From a virus: DNA of 28,070 nt. A program made the position numbers and the translations under genes. Below the pieces are notes generated by a model. The model made no database searches. It was not told the origin of the DNA and saw nothing but the letters and a program-made list of their open reading frames with translations. The DNA lies in the IMG/VR virus record IMGVR_UViG_3300034812_000087, positions 1 to 28,070 of that record. One strand, written 5' to 3'. Position 1 is the first letter of the stretch; each line of letters begins with the position of its first letter. Shown here piece by piece: positions 16,827-24,247 of this stretch.

Positions 16827-17918
16827 TCAAGCAGCTTGCAGTTCAATTGCAGCAGCAGGGTTCAGCCAGTCAGCGCCCATGGCGAGACGACCAACGATCA
16901 GGTCGCCCTGATACATGGTCTTAACATCGGCACCAGTTGTTTGAATCTGGGGTCCAATACCTTGGACAACAGCAGCTGCATCACGCTGGTAGATAAGACC
17001 ACAGCTAGAGCTGAAGTCACCAGAGTAATCGTTGTTCTCACCCAGTTCGCGGGTAACAGTACCAGCCATGAAAGGCAGGTTGTTAGAACGACGAATAGAA
17101 ATACCAGCAATTTCATACAGACCTTCACCAGTATTCATAGAACCTTGATCGTTACCATAACGACGGTTCAGAATGTTGGTGTCAACCTGAGAGATCAACG
17201 CATAATACTGTCTTGGGCTGAGGACCGCCGTACGTCCTGACCCAGGCACATTTTTTTCGTCGAGAATTGAGGCTGCCTCGAAGAATCCATCGACCAAAGA
17301 TTGAGCGTTGAATTCATTACCGGAGCCAAGATTAATCACAGAACCACCAGGCTCAGGACCAGGAGATGCGGTGATAGGATGTGCTTGACGTGCAGAAAGT
17401 GCGATAGTACGGAATACTTTCTTATCGTAAGCTTCTGCAAGAGCATACCCGATCTTATTTGAGATCTCACTTCTCAGAGAGTAGTGCGCAAGGGTCTCAT
17501 CAAGTTCGTATACGAATGCACTGCTGACGAGAAGATCATCCATCAGAATAGTCTTCTCTGCCACGGGAGGATTGTCGCTACCAAGAATAGCGGTACCAGG
17601 CTGATGGTACTGGCTATCCATACGTCCAGTATAGATGAACTGGAGACTGCGACCGTTGCGGAGGGTACGGTTTTGAACAGTTTCTTTAGCGATGCAGGCA
17701 CTTTCATAAGCCTTGATCATCTCTCCGCTAAAGAGCTTTAGGTAGGTAGCATACTTAGCATCGTAATCTGCACCACCTTGAGTCAGACCCAAACCAGGGG
17801 TCTTGTTGATATTACCAATAGCGGTAATACCCATATCTTGCTTGGTACCATACACGTACGAGGCGCCTGTGTTAGCCTGCGATACGGTATTACCATCTTG
17901 TGAATAAAGTGAAGCCAT
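16827..17918 (-). CDS. Major capsid protein, T7 gp10-like
   Basis: A 363-residue HK97-fold capsid protein of the T7-like type (gp10A is 345 residues). Diagnostic parts are the N-terminal FSGEMIKAYE segment, TLRNGRSLQFIYTGR (an E-loop-like region, residues ~85-99), MDDLLVSSAFVYELDE followed by SEISNKIGYALAEAYDKKV (spine helix region), LSPRQYYALI, and the C-terminal GLIYQRDAAAVVQ. It has the longest leader in the window and its own downstream terminator, consistent with the high expression a capsid gene needs. The ATG has no Shine-Dalgarno; it is preceded by an A/T-rich leader. Confidence 0.95.
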   Translation of the reverse strand: MASLYSQDGNTVSQANTGASYVYGTKQDMGITAIGNINKTPGLGLTQGGADYDAKYATYLKLFSGEMIKAYESACIAKETVQNRTLRNGRSLQFIYTGRMDSQYHQPGTAILGSDNPPVAEKTILMDDLLVSSAFVYELDETLAHYSLRSEISNKIGYALAEAYDKKVFRTIALSARQAHPITASPGPEPGGSVINLGSGNEFNAQSLVDGFFEAASILDEKNVPGSGRTAVLSPRQYYALISQVDTNILNRRYGNDQGSMNTGEGLYEIAGISIRRSNNLPFMAGTVTRELGENNDYSGDFSSSCGLIYQRDAAAVVQGIGPQIQTTGADVKTMYQGDLIVGRLAMGADWLNPAAAIELQAA

Positions 17919-20243: not shown

Positions 20244-21326
20244 TTATTCAGTAGTTGAGATTGTCCAAGAGAAGGAAGTAGAGTCTTCTGCTGCACTAGA
20301 TTGAATAGCAACAGAAAGAGATGAAGCACTAGGGAATTCATTAGCAACTTCAACTGTTGCTGAAGCTTGGTTGTTAGGACCACTAATTGTACAAGCACCA
20401 TTCCTGACACTCCACTGCCATAATGCTTTAGAAGCAGGGAGGTTACCAGTATAAGTTGCTGTGTAGTTAGCGGTTGCACCTTTCAGTATTTCTTCGATCT
20501 GGGCTTCAGTCAAAGGTGTGTTAGTAGTAGTGTTTGTTACAGACAAGGTACCGATGGTGTAATATTCCATAGGTCCAAGTTCGTTACTAGCAACCATAGT
20601 GCTTTGACCATCACCTGAAGTAACAGTTACCAGACACTTCATGAGTTTACCAACATCATAAGAGGTGACTACGGTTGTCTGACTCATGTAAGGTACTTCC
20701 CAGATCATTGCATTGGTTTCATCAACCCAGAAATAATCAATTTGATATGAGCCATCACCACCAGTTACAGTCGGTGTTGTACAAGTAATTGTTTCACCAA
20801 CATAAGGAAGACCTGATGCAACAGGAGTGCTAACTGAGAGTGGTGTGTAAGCTACAGTTTTAGTGTTAGTAAAGCTGTTTACCTGCACTACATTTTCAGG
20901 ATCTGTTGCAGCATCTCTTGCTTGAACTTGCAATCTAATCTGTCCACCGGAAACATTAGGATAAGACACCTGTTGTAAATCATTGGGATAGTTAGTCCAA
21001 GTACCATTAACCCAACTATCTTCTGGCTTAGCTCTAGTTTGGAACCGCCACCTGTAGACAGTGTTGTCAGGGTTACCACCAACAAAGGTTCCAGTTGTAG
21101 CTGTTAATGTATTGCCTTCCTCGTAGATGTTATCTTCATGCCACAAGGGTTTATCAGCAATACTTAGTTCATCCCATGGGTCAGGTCCGGGGACTGGTTC
21201 CCATGGGTTTCCATCTGAGTCAACTACCTCAACGACATTAACGTGCTGAGTGTAGTGGGGCATATTTGTATCGACACCCACCTCTTCCACTGAAGCGATG
21301 TTAAGTCGTTGAAGGTATTGAGACAT
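20244..21326 (-). CDS. Ig-like/beta-sandwich domain virion protein, function unknown
   Basis: A 360-residue protein rich in Thr, Ser, Val and Asn with alternating beta-type sequence. Segments such as VGETITCTTPTVTGGDGSY, KCLVTVTSGDGQST and TVEVANEFPSASS look like successive Ig-like domains (roughly residues 60-165, 165-255 and 255-360). There is no signal peptide. Ig-like domains on phage virions usually bind weakly to surfaces or carbohydrates. It starts five bases after the psbA stop and ends two bases before the fibre-like gene, so it probably belongs with that gene as a decoration or appendage subunit. I do not recognise a specific family. Confidence 0.7.
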   Translation of the reverse strand: MSQYLQRLNIASVEEVGVDTNMPHYTQHVNVVEVVDSDGNPWEPVPGPDPWDELSIADKPLWHEDNIYEEGNTLTATTGTFVGGNPDNTVYRWRFQTRAKPEDSWVNGTWTNYPNDLQQVSYPNVSGGQIRLQVQARDAATDPENVVQVNSFTNTKTVAYTPLSVSTPVASGLPYVGETITCTTPTVTGGDGSYQIDYFWVDETNAMIWEVPYMSQTTVVTSYDVGKLMKCLVTVTSGDGQSTMVASNELGPMEYYTIGTLSVTNTTTNTPLTEAQIEEILKGATANYTATYTGNLPASKALWQWSVRNGACTISGPNNQASATVEVANEFPSASSLSVAIQSSAAEDSTSFSWTISTTE

Positions 21327-21331
21327 TTTAA

Positions 21332-22414
21332 TTATCCAATAGTAGGAGTTTTAAGAGCAATAGGCACAATGTTATTTGCAGCCAAGTCAAGGGGGAAGTT
21401 GTGAGCATTGCGCTCATGCATAACTTCAAAGCCCAGGTTAGCACGGTTAAGTACATCAGCCCAGGTGTTGATCACTCGACCCTCAGCAGATTGTACCGAC
21501 TGGTTGAAGTTAAATCCATTCAGATTAAACGCCATAGTTGATACACCAAGAGCAGTAAACCAAATACCCACAACAGGGAAAGCTGCCAAGAAAAAATGAA
21601 GAGAGCGAGAATTATTGAAGCTCGCATATTGGAAGATGAGCCGTCCAAAATACCCATGAGCCGCCACAATATTATAGGTCTCTTCTTCTTGACCGAATTT
21701 GTAGCCATAGTTTTGAGACATTTCTTCGGATGTTTCACGTACCAAGGAAGACGTAACCAAACTACCATGCATAGCTGAGAACAGAGCCCCACCAAATACG
21801 CCGGCAACACCAAGCATATGAAAAGGATGCATAAGAATATTGTGTTCAGCCTGGAATACCAGCATGAAGTTGAAGGTGCCGGAAATGCCAAGTGGCATAC
21901 CGTCAGAGAAGCTACCTTGTCCAAGGGGATAAACAAGAAAGACAGCAGTCGCCGCAGCGACCGGAGCGGAGTAAGCAACAAAGATCCAAGGTCTCATTCC
22001 GAGACGATAACTAAGTTCCCATTCTCGTCCCATGTACCCATAGATACCGATGAGAAAATGGAAGATGACAAGTTGGTAGGGTCCACCGTTGTAGAGCCAT
22101 TCATCAAGTGATCCGGCTTCCCAGATGGGATAGAAATGCAGTCCAATTGCATTAGAAGAGGGCACCACTGCACCGGAGATGATGTTGTTTCCATAGAGTA
22201 GAGAGCCAGCGACGGGTTCACGAATCCCATCAATATCGACGGGAGGTGCTGCAATAAATGCAACAATAAAACAGGTTGTGGCAGCGAGCAGACAAGGGAT
22301 CATCAGCACACCGAACCAACCAACATAAAGACGGTTGTTTGTAGAGGTAACCCACTCACAGAAAGATTCCCATGGTGAGCTACTTCTTTGTGAAATAATA
22401 GTTGAAGTAGCCAT
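21332..22414 (-). CDS. psbA: Photosystem II D1 protein
   Basis: A complete 360-residue D1, numbered one ahead of the plant standard. All functional residues are visible: Tyr-Z at 162 (standard 161), Mn ligands Asp171, Glu190, His333, Glu334, His338, Asp343 and the processing-site Ala345 (standard 344), P680 ligand His199, iron ligands His216 and His273, and QB-site Ser265 (standard 264). A 15-residue C-terminal extension ([15 protein letters not shown]) remains for CtpA cleavage. The residue at standard position 130 is Glu, the high-light D1 type. Phage D1 replaces the rapidly turned-over host D1 in the thylakoid during infection. No internal frame break. The ATG has an A/T-rich leader with a G-rich tract and no normal Shine-Dalgarno. 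Confidence 0.99.
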
Positions 22415-22460: not shown

Positions 22461-22763
22461 TTAAAGGAAAGGAGCGAAGTCAAGGATGTTTTGCACTGGG
22501 CAGAACTCCTTGGCAACACGACCTTTCAATGTTTTAGATCCATGCCGACGATCGCAATCTACAGAGTATGCGCGATTGCGCTCAACAGTAAAGGCAGGGA
22601 TACCAATGCTACGCTTTTGGTTGTAGCAAACACCGCGTGAGTAGTCACCATTAATGGGACAAGCGCGAATGTCTGTAGCATCACCGAGATTTACCTCGAC
22701 TTCAACAGCTTGGACAGGGGCAGCAAGAAGAAGTGCTGCGGGAATAAACAAAAGCTTTTTCAT
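22461..22763 (-). CDS. Small exported protein with four cysteines, function unknown
   Basis: A 100-residue protein. I choose the ATG that opens the signal peptide MKKLLFIPAALLLAAPVQA (predicted cut after residue 19); the frame reaches 13 codons further to a start overlapping the upstream gene, which would bury the signal peptide. The mature part has four Cys (35, 46, 70, 88), fitting two disulfides in the periplasm, and is otherwise Arg/Val/Asp-rich. No family recognised. It lies two bases after the outer-membrane-like gene and before psbA, so the two exported proteins are probably made together. Confidence 0.7.
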   Translation of the reverse strand: MKKLLFIPAALLLAAPVQAVEVEVNLGDATDIRACPINGDYSRGVCYNQKRSIGIPAFTVERNRAYSVDCDRRHGSKTLKGRVAKEFCPVQNILDFAPFL

Positions 22764-22765
22764 AA

Positions 22766-23122
22766 TCAGAACCTGTAAGTAGCACCGGCTTTGAAGTTCC
22801 AAGCCGTATCTTCACCAGTAATAAAGTACACTTCCTTGTACAGTTCGACGTTTTCAGTCACGTCAAGGACCACGCCAGCCTTACCTGACAGGTTGGTCTC
22901 AGCATCTTCACCATTAGGGAGAGAGAATGCAGGACCAGCTTGCACATACCAGTCAGCATCAGTATCACCAATAGAACCTTCAAACCCTTTATGGAGTTCG
23001 ATCAAGGAACCAGTGTAGTCATTACCAATACGACCGGAGTTGGACTCAAGGTTGACATAGGGTCCAGCAATAGCAGCGGGAGCCGAAGCGAGGAGGATAC
23101 CTGCAGCAATAAATGATTTCAT
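22766..23122 (-). CDS. Small exported outer-membrane-like beta protein
   Basis: A 118-residue protein with a clear signal peptide (MKSFIAAGILLASAPAAIA, cut before Gly20). The mature part alternates polar and aromatic/hydrophobic residues in strand-length blocks (WYVQAGPAFSL, SGKAGVVLDV, ELYKEVYFIT) and ends in FKAGATYRF. A C-terminal Phe preceded by alternating residues is the usual signal for insertion of outer-membrane barrels by the BAM machinery. At ~99 mature residues it could form a small or oligomeric barrel. Role in infection unknown; altering the host surface or aiding exclusion or release are possibilities. There is no Shine-Dalgarno. Confidence 0.7.
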   Translation of the reverse strand: MKSFIAAGILLASAPAAIAGPYVNLESNSGRIGNDYTGSLIELHKGFEGSIGDTDADWYVQAGPAFSLPNGEDAETNLSGKAGVVLDVTENVELYKEVYFITGEDTAWNFKAGATYRF

Positions 23123-23138
23123 GATTAATAAATAGAGT

Positions 23139-23267
23139 TTACTTTTTTTTAACTTTAACGCAGTTGTTTACGCGGGTACCACCTTTTACTTTAGTACCCG
23201 ATTTCTTATAACCCTTCCAACAGGAAGGATCGAGACGAGTCTTAGTAGCCTTTTTTCTTGCCGCCAC
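23139..23267 (-). CDS. 42-residue basic protein with two cysteines (GTG start), function unknown
   Basis: The protein begins (M)AARKKATKTRLDPSCWKGY and ends VNNCVKVKKK: 14 Lys/Arg and two Cys in 42 residues. I accept a GTG start because a strong GGAGGT lies seven bases before it, one of the clearest ribosome sites in the window. Similar short Lys-rich proteins with DPSCWKGYKK-like cores are common in cyanophages by my recollection, but no function is known. It overlaps the 27-residue ORF by 26 bases in another frame. Confidence 0.7.
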   Translation of the reverse strand: MAARKKATKTRLDPSCWKGYKKSGTKVKGGTRVNNCVKVKKK

Positions 23268-23325
23268 CTTTCTTACCTCCTTTGCAGTTGCCTCTACAGG
23301 CTTTCTTTCTACAGTTTTTACACAT
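23242..23325 (-). CDS. 27-residue Cys/Lys/Gly-rich micro-ORF coupled to hli
   Basis: The ATG shares a base with the hli stop (TGATG), a common coupling signal. The peptide opens MCKNCRKKACRGNCKGG, has four Cys (2, 5, 10, 14) in the first half and a Lys/Gly tail. A CxxC plus two more Cys could bind a metal ion. It contains the ribosome site of the next gene, so it may exist partly to pass ribosomes along. Coding status is likely but not proven because low complexity can arise by chance. Confidence 0.5.
   Translation of the reverse strand: MCKNCRKKACRGNCKGGKKGGGKKKGY
23275..23280 (-). promoter_or_regulatory. Ribosome binding site deciding a GTG start
   Basis: GGAGGT seven bases before the GTG of the 42-residue basic protein; it sits inside the preceding micro-ORF. 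Confidence 0.7.
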
Positions 23326-23483
23326 CAGAATACTCCAGGGATAATTTGACCGGTCAAGGCATACGCACCGAGCGCAGCCACGACGCCTAGCATAGCCAGA
23401 CGCCCGTTCCAAAGTTCACCGTTTTCCATTGTTTTTTTAATCTCATTAAGGGTAACAATAAATTCTGCGTCGTTCACAATCAT
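23325..23483 (-). CDS. hli: High-light-inducible protein
   Basis: A 52-residue single-helix protein of the chlorophyll a/b-binding-like family. The N terminus is short and polar; residues 23-44 hold the diagnostic ELWNGRLAMLGVVAALG, with the Glu and Asn-x-Arg that contact chlorophyll, inside the one membrane helix, followed by ALTGQIIPG. Such proteins bind pigment in the thylakoid and protect photosystem II from excess light; phage copies accompany psbA. The ATG shares one base with the scaffold gene's stop (TGATG), so it is translated in the morphogenesis operon. Confidence 0.96.
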   Translation of the reverse strand: MIVNDAEFIVTLNEIKKTMENGELWNGRLAMLGVVAALGAYALTGQIIPGVF

Positions 23484-24247
23484 CAATAATCAATACTAGA
23501 TTGCTCAAGACGGGCAAAAACATCAGCACGATAGGCTGGGTCTTTATCATAACGAGGATCTTGCATTGCAGCAACAACTTCAGCCTGACTACGGAACCCA
23601 TTGTTTACAATAGGTGCTCCTTTGCCAGTCAACATCTGACCTTCACGACCATTAGAATTATCGTATGCTGATTGCAATCCAGCAGTAGCAAGTTTAATCA
23701 TATTAACATCACCAGTATTGATGAGGTTATCAAAAGCTTGAACATACTGTGGGTCTAGATTTTTACTAGCCCAATCAACAAGTTGACCGTAAGCTTCTTC
23801 ACCACCAACAGTAGCCTGTACTTCCATCACTTCTTTTTCACTAAGGTCAGGAGTACTTTGATAGTTCTGTTGAATATCCATGTATGCATCAAGAAGTTCT
23901 TTACTGTCCATACCTTGGAGAGTTTCCAAAGTTTCAGGTGACAGTTTACCACTCTCTTGATATTCACGAGAAGCTTCAATCAACTGTGTTGTTATTTCGT
24001 TTGAGGTCTCTTCGGGTTGTGTACTGGACTCTTCAGGTTCTTGTTTGCTGGTCTCTTGTTCATTGTTACCGAGTTTACTTTGCAATTCAAGGTAGGCTTG
24101 TTCGAGTGCTTCAGCGTCCTTGAATTTACCAGCAAGCATTTCACTCTGCTGTTGTTCTGCAGCTTCACCAATAGCTAGAGCTTCTTTCTCTGCTTCATTG
24201 AATTCAGGCTGATCTGCAGGGGTGGGATCATACGTCAGTGTTGCCAT
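23483..24247 (-). CDS. Capsid assembly scaffold protein, T7 gp9-like
   Basis: A 254-residue acidic, Gln/Glu-rich, mostly helical protein directly after the portal region, where T7 has gene 9 (307 residues). Features: an N-terminal YDPTPADQPEF segment, a disordered Glu/Ser/Thr/Gln-rich stretch (residues ~60-85), and a C-terminal region (GFRSQAEVVAAMQDPRYDKDPAYRADV) of the type scaffolds use to bind the capsid shell. It guides procapsid assembly and leaves before maturation. It overlaps the preceding small gene by 20 bases. In T7 the capsid gene follows at once; here ~5.5 kb intervene. Confidence 0.85.
   Translation of the reverse strand: MATLTYDPTPADQPEFNEAEKEALAIGEAAEQQQSEMLAGKFKDAEALEQAYLELQSKLGNNEQETSKQEPEESSTQPEETSNEITTQLIEASREYQESGKLSPETLETLQGMDSKELLDAYMDIQQNYQSTPDLSEKEVMEVQATVGGEEAYGQLVDWASKNLDPQYVQAFDNLINTGDVNMIKLATAGLQSAYDNSNGREGQMLTGKGAPIVNNGFRSQAEVVAAMQDPRYDKDPAYRADVFARLEQSSIDY

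Follow-up and report, generated by a model that had tools for sequence, protein, structure and literature searches.

Lom of phage lambda is a small barrel that the phage places in the outer membrane of its host; it is expressed from the prophage and belongs to enterobacterial phages. Compared by description only, its likeness to the protein studied here lies in being a small phage-encoded outer-membrane barrel. Cyanophages, which account for much of the mortality among the ocean's main photosynthesisers, carry a family treated in the literature as PhCOG173/DUF680 (PMC6224464). When phage S-TIM4 evolves on Synechococcus WH8102, loss of its family member, ORF224, is selected for: on this host only, independent mutations, many in number, inactivated the gene in effectively every phage of the population (PMC6224464). 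The corresponding gene cluster is over-represented, together with pstS, at the low-phosphate BATS site (PMC3686209), and PMC6224464, citing earlier work, ties the family to phosphate stress. Two family peptides (25% coverage) were reported from CsCl-purified S-SZBM1 particles (PMC9146016), whereas Enav et al. class PhCOG173 as not particle-associated (PMC6224464). The loss on WH8102, the enrichment at BATS and the S-SZBM1 peptides fit a conditionally useful, costly envelope protein.

The window analysed here, 28 kb in length and listed in IMG/VR as a virus record, is part of a T7-like cyanophage. It encodes ribonucleotide reductase, portal, scaffold, hli, a pair of exported proteins, psbA, fibre-like genes, capsid, tail and internal virion proteins, each from the minus strand (Table 1). 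The pair had been singled out in an earlier note made from the sequence alone, and the anatomy described there was recovered in full: both proteins carry export signals, the first has a barrel-like C-terminus with a terminal Phe, the second has four cysteines, and two bases separate the stop codon of gene 1 (TGA, 22766–22768) from the ATG of gene 2 (22761–22763; ...AGGTTCTGATTATGAAA). Nothing in the cassette scored above chance as a promoter, terminator or Rfam element. Both genes of the pair are real genes, as detailed below for each.

Table 1 Features of the psbA cassette and its borders in the window.
Feature	Position	Strand	Description
Major capsid protein	16827–17918	-	PF21703 Gp10A-like; downstream side of the insertion region
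psbA (photosystem II D1)	21332–22414	-	Next gene downstream of the pair
Four-cysteine gene (gene 2, P0001)	22461–22763	-	100 aa, exported; new family, three known members
Phage_OMP gene (gene 1, P0002)	22766–23122	-	118 aa; PF24653/phrog_417/PhCOG173, GenBank 'DUF680'
42-aa basic protein	23139–23267	-	Directly upstream of OMP; basic segment of phrog_4359, E 1e-9
High-light-inducible protein (hli)	23325–23486	-	phrog_178; cassette neighbour
Capsid scaffold protein	23483–24247	-	PF05396/phrog_1052; upstream border of the cassette

The 118-aa protein matches PF24653 (Phage_OMP, 'Cyanophage outer membrane protein like beta barrel domain') over residues 2–118 of 118 (E 1.2e-35, 122.8 bits, against a gathering cut-off of 27 bits) and PHROG 417 (phrog_417, function unassigned; E 1e-33). 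Relatives were found by tblastn (E < 1e-3) in at least 460 annotated phage records, nearly all of them marine cyanophages; this spread and the Pfam match establish gene 1 as real. S-TIM4 ORF224 (L027 11633–11992) scores PF24653 at 109 bits and is also a phrog_417 protein, and by these profile matches the 118-aa protein is of the same family as ORF224 ('DUF680'/PhCOG173). No DUF680 Pfam model matched P0002 (E up to 1) or ORF224 (E up to 0.1); we therefore rejected a DUF680 filing, and the GenBank name looks misapplied to the family. The Phage_OMP barrel is among the commonest cyanophage genes of unassigned function; it accompanies psbA across phage lineages that are not related, and selection acts against it on one host or more. 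The supposition that such a protein is unusual in a lytic phage is not supported, and the pair is an undescribed small system in one half only: the barrel is an already catalogued, widespread family, and only its four-cysteine partner is new. Two other filings, anti-phage defence and spanin, were rejected. PADLOC defence models did not match P0001, P0002 or the L002 homologue of P0001, and the pair contains no outer-membrane lipoprotein with a lipobox, as a two-component spanin would, since P0001 has no cysteine before residue 35, which is 16 residues beyond the predicted cleavage site, and P0002 is cysteine-free.

The 118-aa protein begins MKSFIAAGILLASAPAAIA, continues after the predicted cleavage with GPY... 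and ends in Phe. Signal peptides were called heuristically, by eye and with a simple script, and the script was positive for 115 of 119 Phage_OMP family members. Structure prediction, which the earlier note had proposed as the check on a barrel, returned one: an AlphaFold2 model built with 18 relatives has six strands (residues 20–32, 35–50, 56–69, 75–87, 92–101 and 107–116), and most of its mature part has a pLDDT of at least 90. The transmembrane domain of OmpA superposes on the predicted barrel through residues 47–170 (Z 11.1, 2.3 Å over 94 residues); OprF scores equally (Z 11.1), OmpW is close behind, and avidin-type soluble barrels reach only ~7.6, well under these values. Polar and apolar residues alternate across the predicted strands far more than in shuffled sequences (p = 5e-5). 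The up-and-down fold would thus be common to the phage barrel and the eight-stranded barrels of OmpA, OprF and OmpX. However, OmpA and OmpX have eight transmembrane strands and the phage barrel a predicted six: residues 47–170 of OmpA correspond to its strands 3–8, and from this alignment the first hairpin is absent.

The C-terminus of the protein reads K-A-G-A-T-Y-R-F. We scored such ends as polar-x-Gly-x-x-hydrophobic-x-aromatic, the known BAM recognition pattern, and found this beta-signal in 110 of 112 complete Phage_OMP relatives versus about a dozen of ~4,790 other ORFs. Known natural monomeric outer-membrane barrels have at least eight strands; the six predicted here could point to an oligomer or to a sheet that stays open. 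Two OMP-family ORFs, mostly adjacent, share a single locus in seven cases (L154 3986–4724; L134, L140, L159, L160, L166 and L179), perhaps forming a heteromeric barrel.

Host proteins offer a candidate origin for this fold. Picocyanobacterial proteins of ~200 aa (L119, L120) score as PF13505 OMP_b-brl, while PF24653 scores them under its cut-off; hhalign aligns their profile with the central part of the phage barrel at a probability of 91%, and PF24653 against a host protein gives E 2e-5. Because these longer Cyanobiaceae proteins resemble the middle of the phage barrel, its descent from a host barrel through hairpin loss is plausible on sequence grounds. Several presumed host copies of the phage gene were rejected: L113, L114 and L116 have T7-like phage genes for neighbours (psbA, capsid or scaffold), and L115, a full-length copy, is on a contig whose 189 kb would suit a cyanomyovirus. 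The copy at L117 1501–1830, on a 2.4-Mb Cyanobiaceae contig that looks like host chromosome, is broken, with two TAG stops in frame and no recognisable phage genes beside it.

The 100-aa protein begins MKKLLFIPAALLLAAPVQA, with VEV... after the predicted cleavage, and has its cysteines at residues 35, 46, 70 and 88. It matched nothing in Pfam, PHROGs, PADLOC, PDB sequences or the phage collection, and its one NCBIfam match was far under the cut-off. Two homologues are on the viral contigs L006 (76% identical) and L002 (53%). Each is encoded immediately after OMP, again at a distance of two bases, with psbA next, and each retains the four cysteines; the three proteins share the motif VCYNQ...VDC-RR...KT-G-VA-EFCP. 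Against L006, dN is 0.165 and dS 1.04 (dN/dS about 0.16), which, with the same place on independent viral contigs, identifies gene 2 as real. No relatives of P0001 beyond these two came from three scans of viral contigs, one of genome contigs, the phage collection and 400 genomes of Cyanobiaceae. A single genome match (E 0.003) was rejected, as it is interrupted by three in-frame stops and lies on the antisense strand of a dnaA-like gene. OMPs that the P0001 profile matched through the signal peptide only (L018, L019, L161 and others) were kept out of the homologue count. In some OMPs (L018 5932–6270; L019, L161, L176, L178, L180 and L184) an ordinary mature barrel follows a signal peptide like that of the four-cysteine protein (PAALFAAAPALA type), which suggests signal-peptide swapping within the cassette. 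The model of the 100-aa protein, shallow as it is built from three sequences, has three strands and a helix at moderate confidence (pLDDT 77) and no PDB match above Z 3.7, hence no known fold.

To describe the surroundings of the barrel, we sampled 55 T7-like loci that were picked for having OMP, leaving out the T4-like L027. The psbA gene is on the same fragment in 48 of the 55, a figure that, from OMP-selected loci, does not give the share of psbA phages with OMP. In these loci OMP lies within the scaffold-capsid cassette, most often with hli upstream and psbA downstream. Phage P-SSP7 has hli and psbA side by side without OMP, so OMP is dispensable. The basic protein upstream of OMP in the window is found in the same position in L001, L002 and L006. 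The four-cysteine partner is present in only three of the 55 loci; the search for the pair in cyanophages and hosts that the earlier note had called for therefore did find it again, albeit rarely, and the 400 Cyanobiaceae genomes yielded no copy of the partner.

A phage lysozyme, PF18013 Phage_lysozyme2 (phrog_512), lies just upstream of OMP in 10 T7-like contigs and the isolate S-RIP1, and in these 11 loci the lysozyme stop and the OMP start overlap by exactly four bases (ATGA). No PF18013 lysozyme was found near the pair in the window. In T4-like isolates this lysozyme is often 4–10 kb from OMP and in others 28–48 kb; with distances that vary so widely, only the T7-like group offers a firm link. 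Delivery of the lysozyme may differ as well: its T4-like version, Syn9 gp214 (L204 884–1471), has at its N-terminus a signal or anchor that is missing from the T7-like copies of 150 aa. Syn9 gp215, between lysozyme and psbA, was rejected as a barrel candidate because it is not a barrel. S-TIM4 ORF224 and Syn9 gp222 resemble the window OMP in their full-length profile match, signal peptide, terminal beta-signal and position near psbA. In contrast to the window gene, the T4-like copies adjoin nrdC rather than lying inside the scaffold-capsid gap, and none was seen with a four-cysteine partner. In several T4-like phages OMP is followed by phrog_2587 'HAH', a one-helix membrane protein with an H-x-x-AH motif (L143 4409–4594, L174 4415–4612, L177 4409–4597 and others); it was dropped as an OMP partner, as in most records it adjoins hsp20, far from OMP.

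From what was observed, namely family and anatomy, the predicted fold, the beta-signal, the position in the cassette and the coupling of genes, we consider it fairly probable that the phage-made barrel is inserted by host BAM and remodels the outer membrane of the infected cell, with the four-cysteine protein as an exported accessory. Against this reading stand the count of six strands, the S-SZBM1 peptides, the lack of a PF18013 lysozyme beside the pair in the window, the dispensability of OMP shown by P-SSP7 and the moderate confidence of the partner's model. The barrel would be exported via Sec, and host BAM would read its conserved C-terminal beta-signal and very probably fold it into the host outer membrane. 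It is probably made during the re-tooling of the cell for phage production, since it lies in the hli/psbA auxiliary cassette, in which no internal promoter or terminator rises above chance. The four-cysteine protein, probably with two disulfides, would be translated from the same message and act as a periplasmic or secreted accessory. Most likely, an infected cell with the barrel would differ in its outer surface or its stability. Among specific roles, help with envelope breakdown alongside lysozyme, towards which the lysozyme coupling leans, is a tentative candidate that ranks slightly above superinfection blocking and further above nutrient uptake and a virion role. The fullest version, in which a shortened six-stranded OmpA-type barrel enters via the BAM signal, weakens or jams the outer membrane and, with the coupled lysozyme of relatives, supplies the missing outer-membrane step of cyanophage lysis, the four-cysteine protein being a clade-specific periplasmic partner, seems to us improbable as a whole.

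In superinfection exclusion or surface masking, which we regard as rather unlikely, the barrel would sit in the infected cell's outer membrane and block or hide phage receptors, like other phage-made envelope proteins. The predicted OmpA/OmpX/Ail-like fold leaves this open, and the barrel is conserved within cyanophages that co-infect the same hosts; the gene loss favoured on WH8102, however, fits a cost whose cause is left unnamed (PMC6224464). Easier entry of a limiting nutrient during infection, phosphate in particular, would agree with the phosphate-stress tie that PMC6224464 draws from earlier work and with the joint over-representation with pstS at BATS (PMC3686209). Yet six- or eight-stranded barrels should have little or no open pore, making a pore role less likely for so small a barrel, and the T7-like OMP starts a few bases after the previous gene without a promoter of its own, and therefore without separate Pho regulation in T7-like phages; we think this role improbable. 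A barrel packaged in or attached to particles appears just as improbable. The T7-like gene does sit among structural genes, and the finding of family peptides in purified S-SZBM1 particles (PMC9146016) goes some way towards a virion component, which the earlier note had set against its own reading; but outer-membrane fragments can co-purify with particles, leaving an outer-membrane site compatible, the export signal and beta-signal are conserved throughout the family, and the classification by Enav et al. (PMC6224464) is against it.

Whether the two proteins cooperate is a separate matter, and there is a nearly even chance that they do not, the four-cysteine gene having slipped in between OMP and psbA as a passing insertion. 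Its rarity among the T7-like loci fits this, as does L001, which has the most similar OMP (87% identical) and no four-cysteine gene; against it, all three known copies keep the same order, the identical two-base spacing and purifying selection. With its only two homologues in the same place, their gap and cysteines kept and dN/dS low, the 100-aa protein is, as far as sequence can tell, a real, rare, clade-level add-on, and it adds an uncatalogued protein family. For the barrel, the strand count, the BAM signal and the coupling to lysozyme replace a vague 'phosphate response' label with hypotheses about the envelope that can be tested.

Other proteins accompany these cassettes. In some T7-like phages a further small exported protein, His-rich and of 48–49 aa (HVTGTDHTHDH...FCIEDEQEIH), is encoded directly upstream of OMP (L004 5843–5992 and L016 3609–3755), and its L016 copy had no Pfam or PHROG match. 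In the window, psbA is followed by a 360-aa Ig-like/fibre-like protein (20244–21326) without a PHROG match, a homologue of which occupies the same place in L001 (3614–4401).
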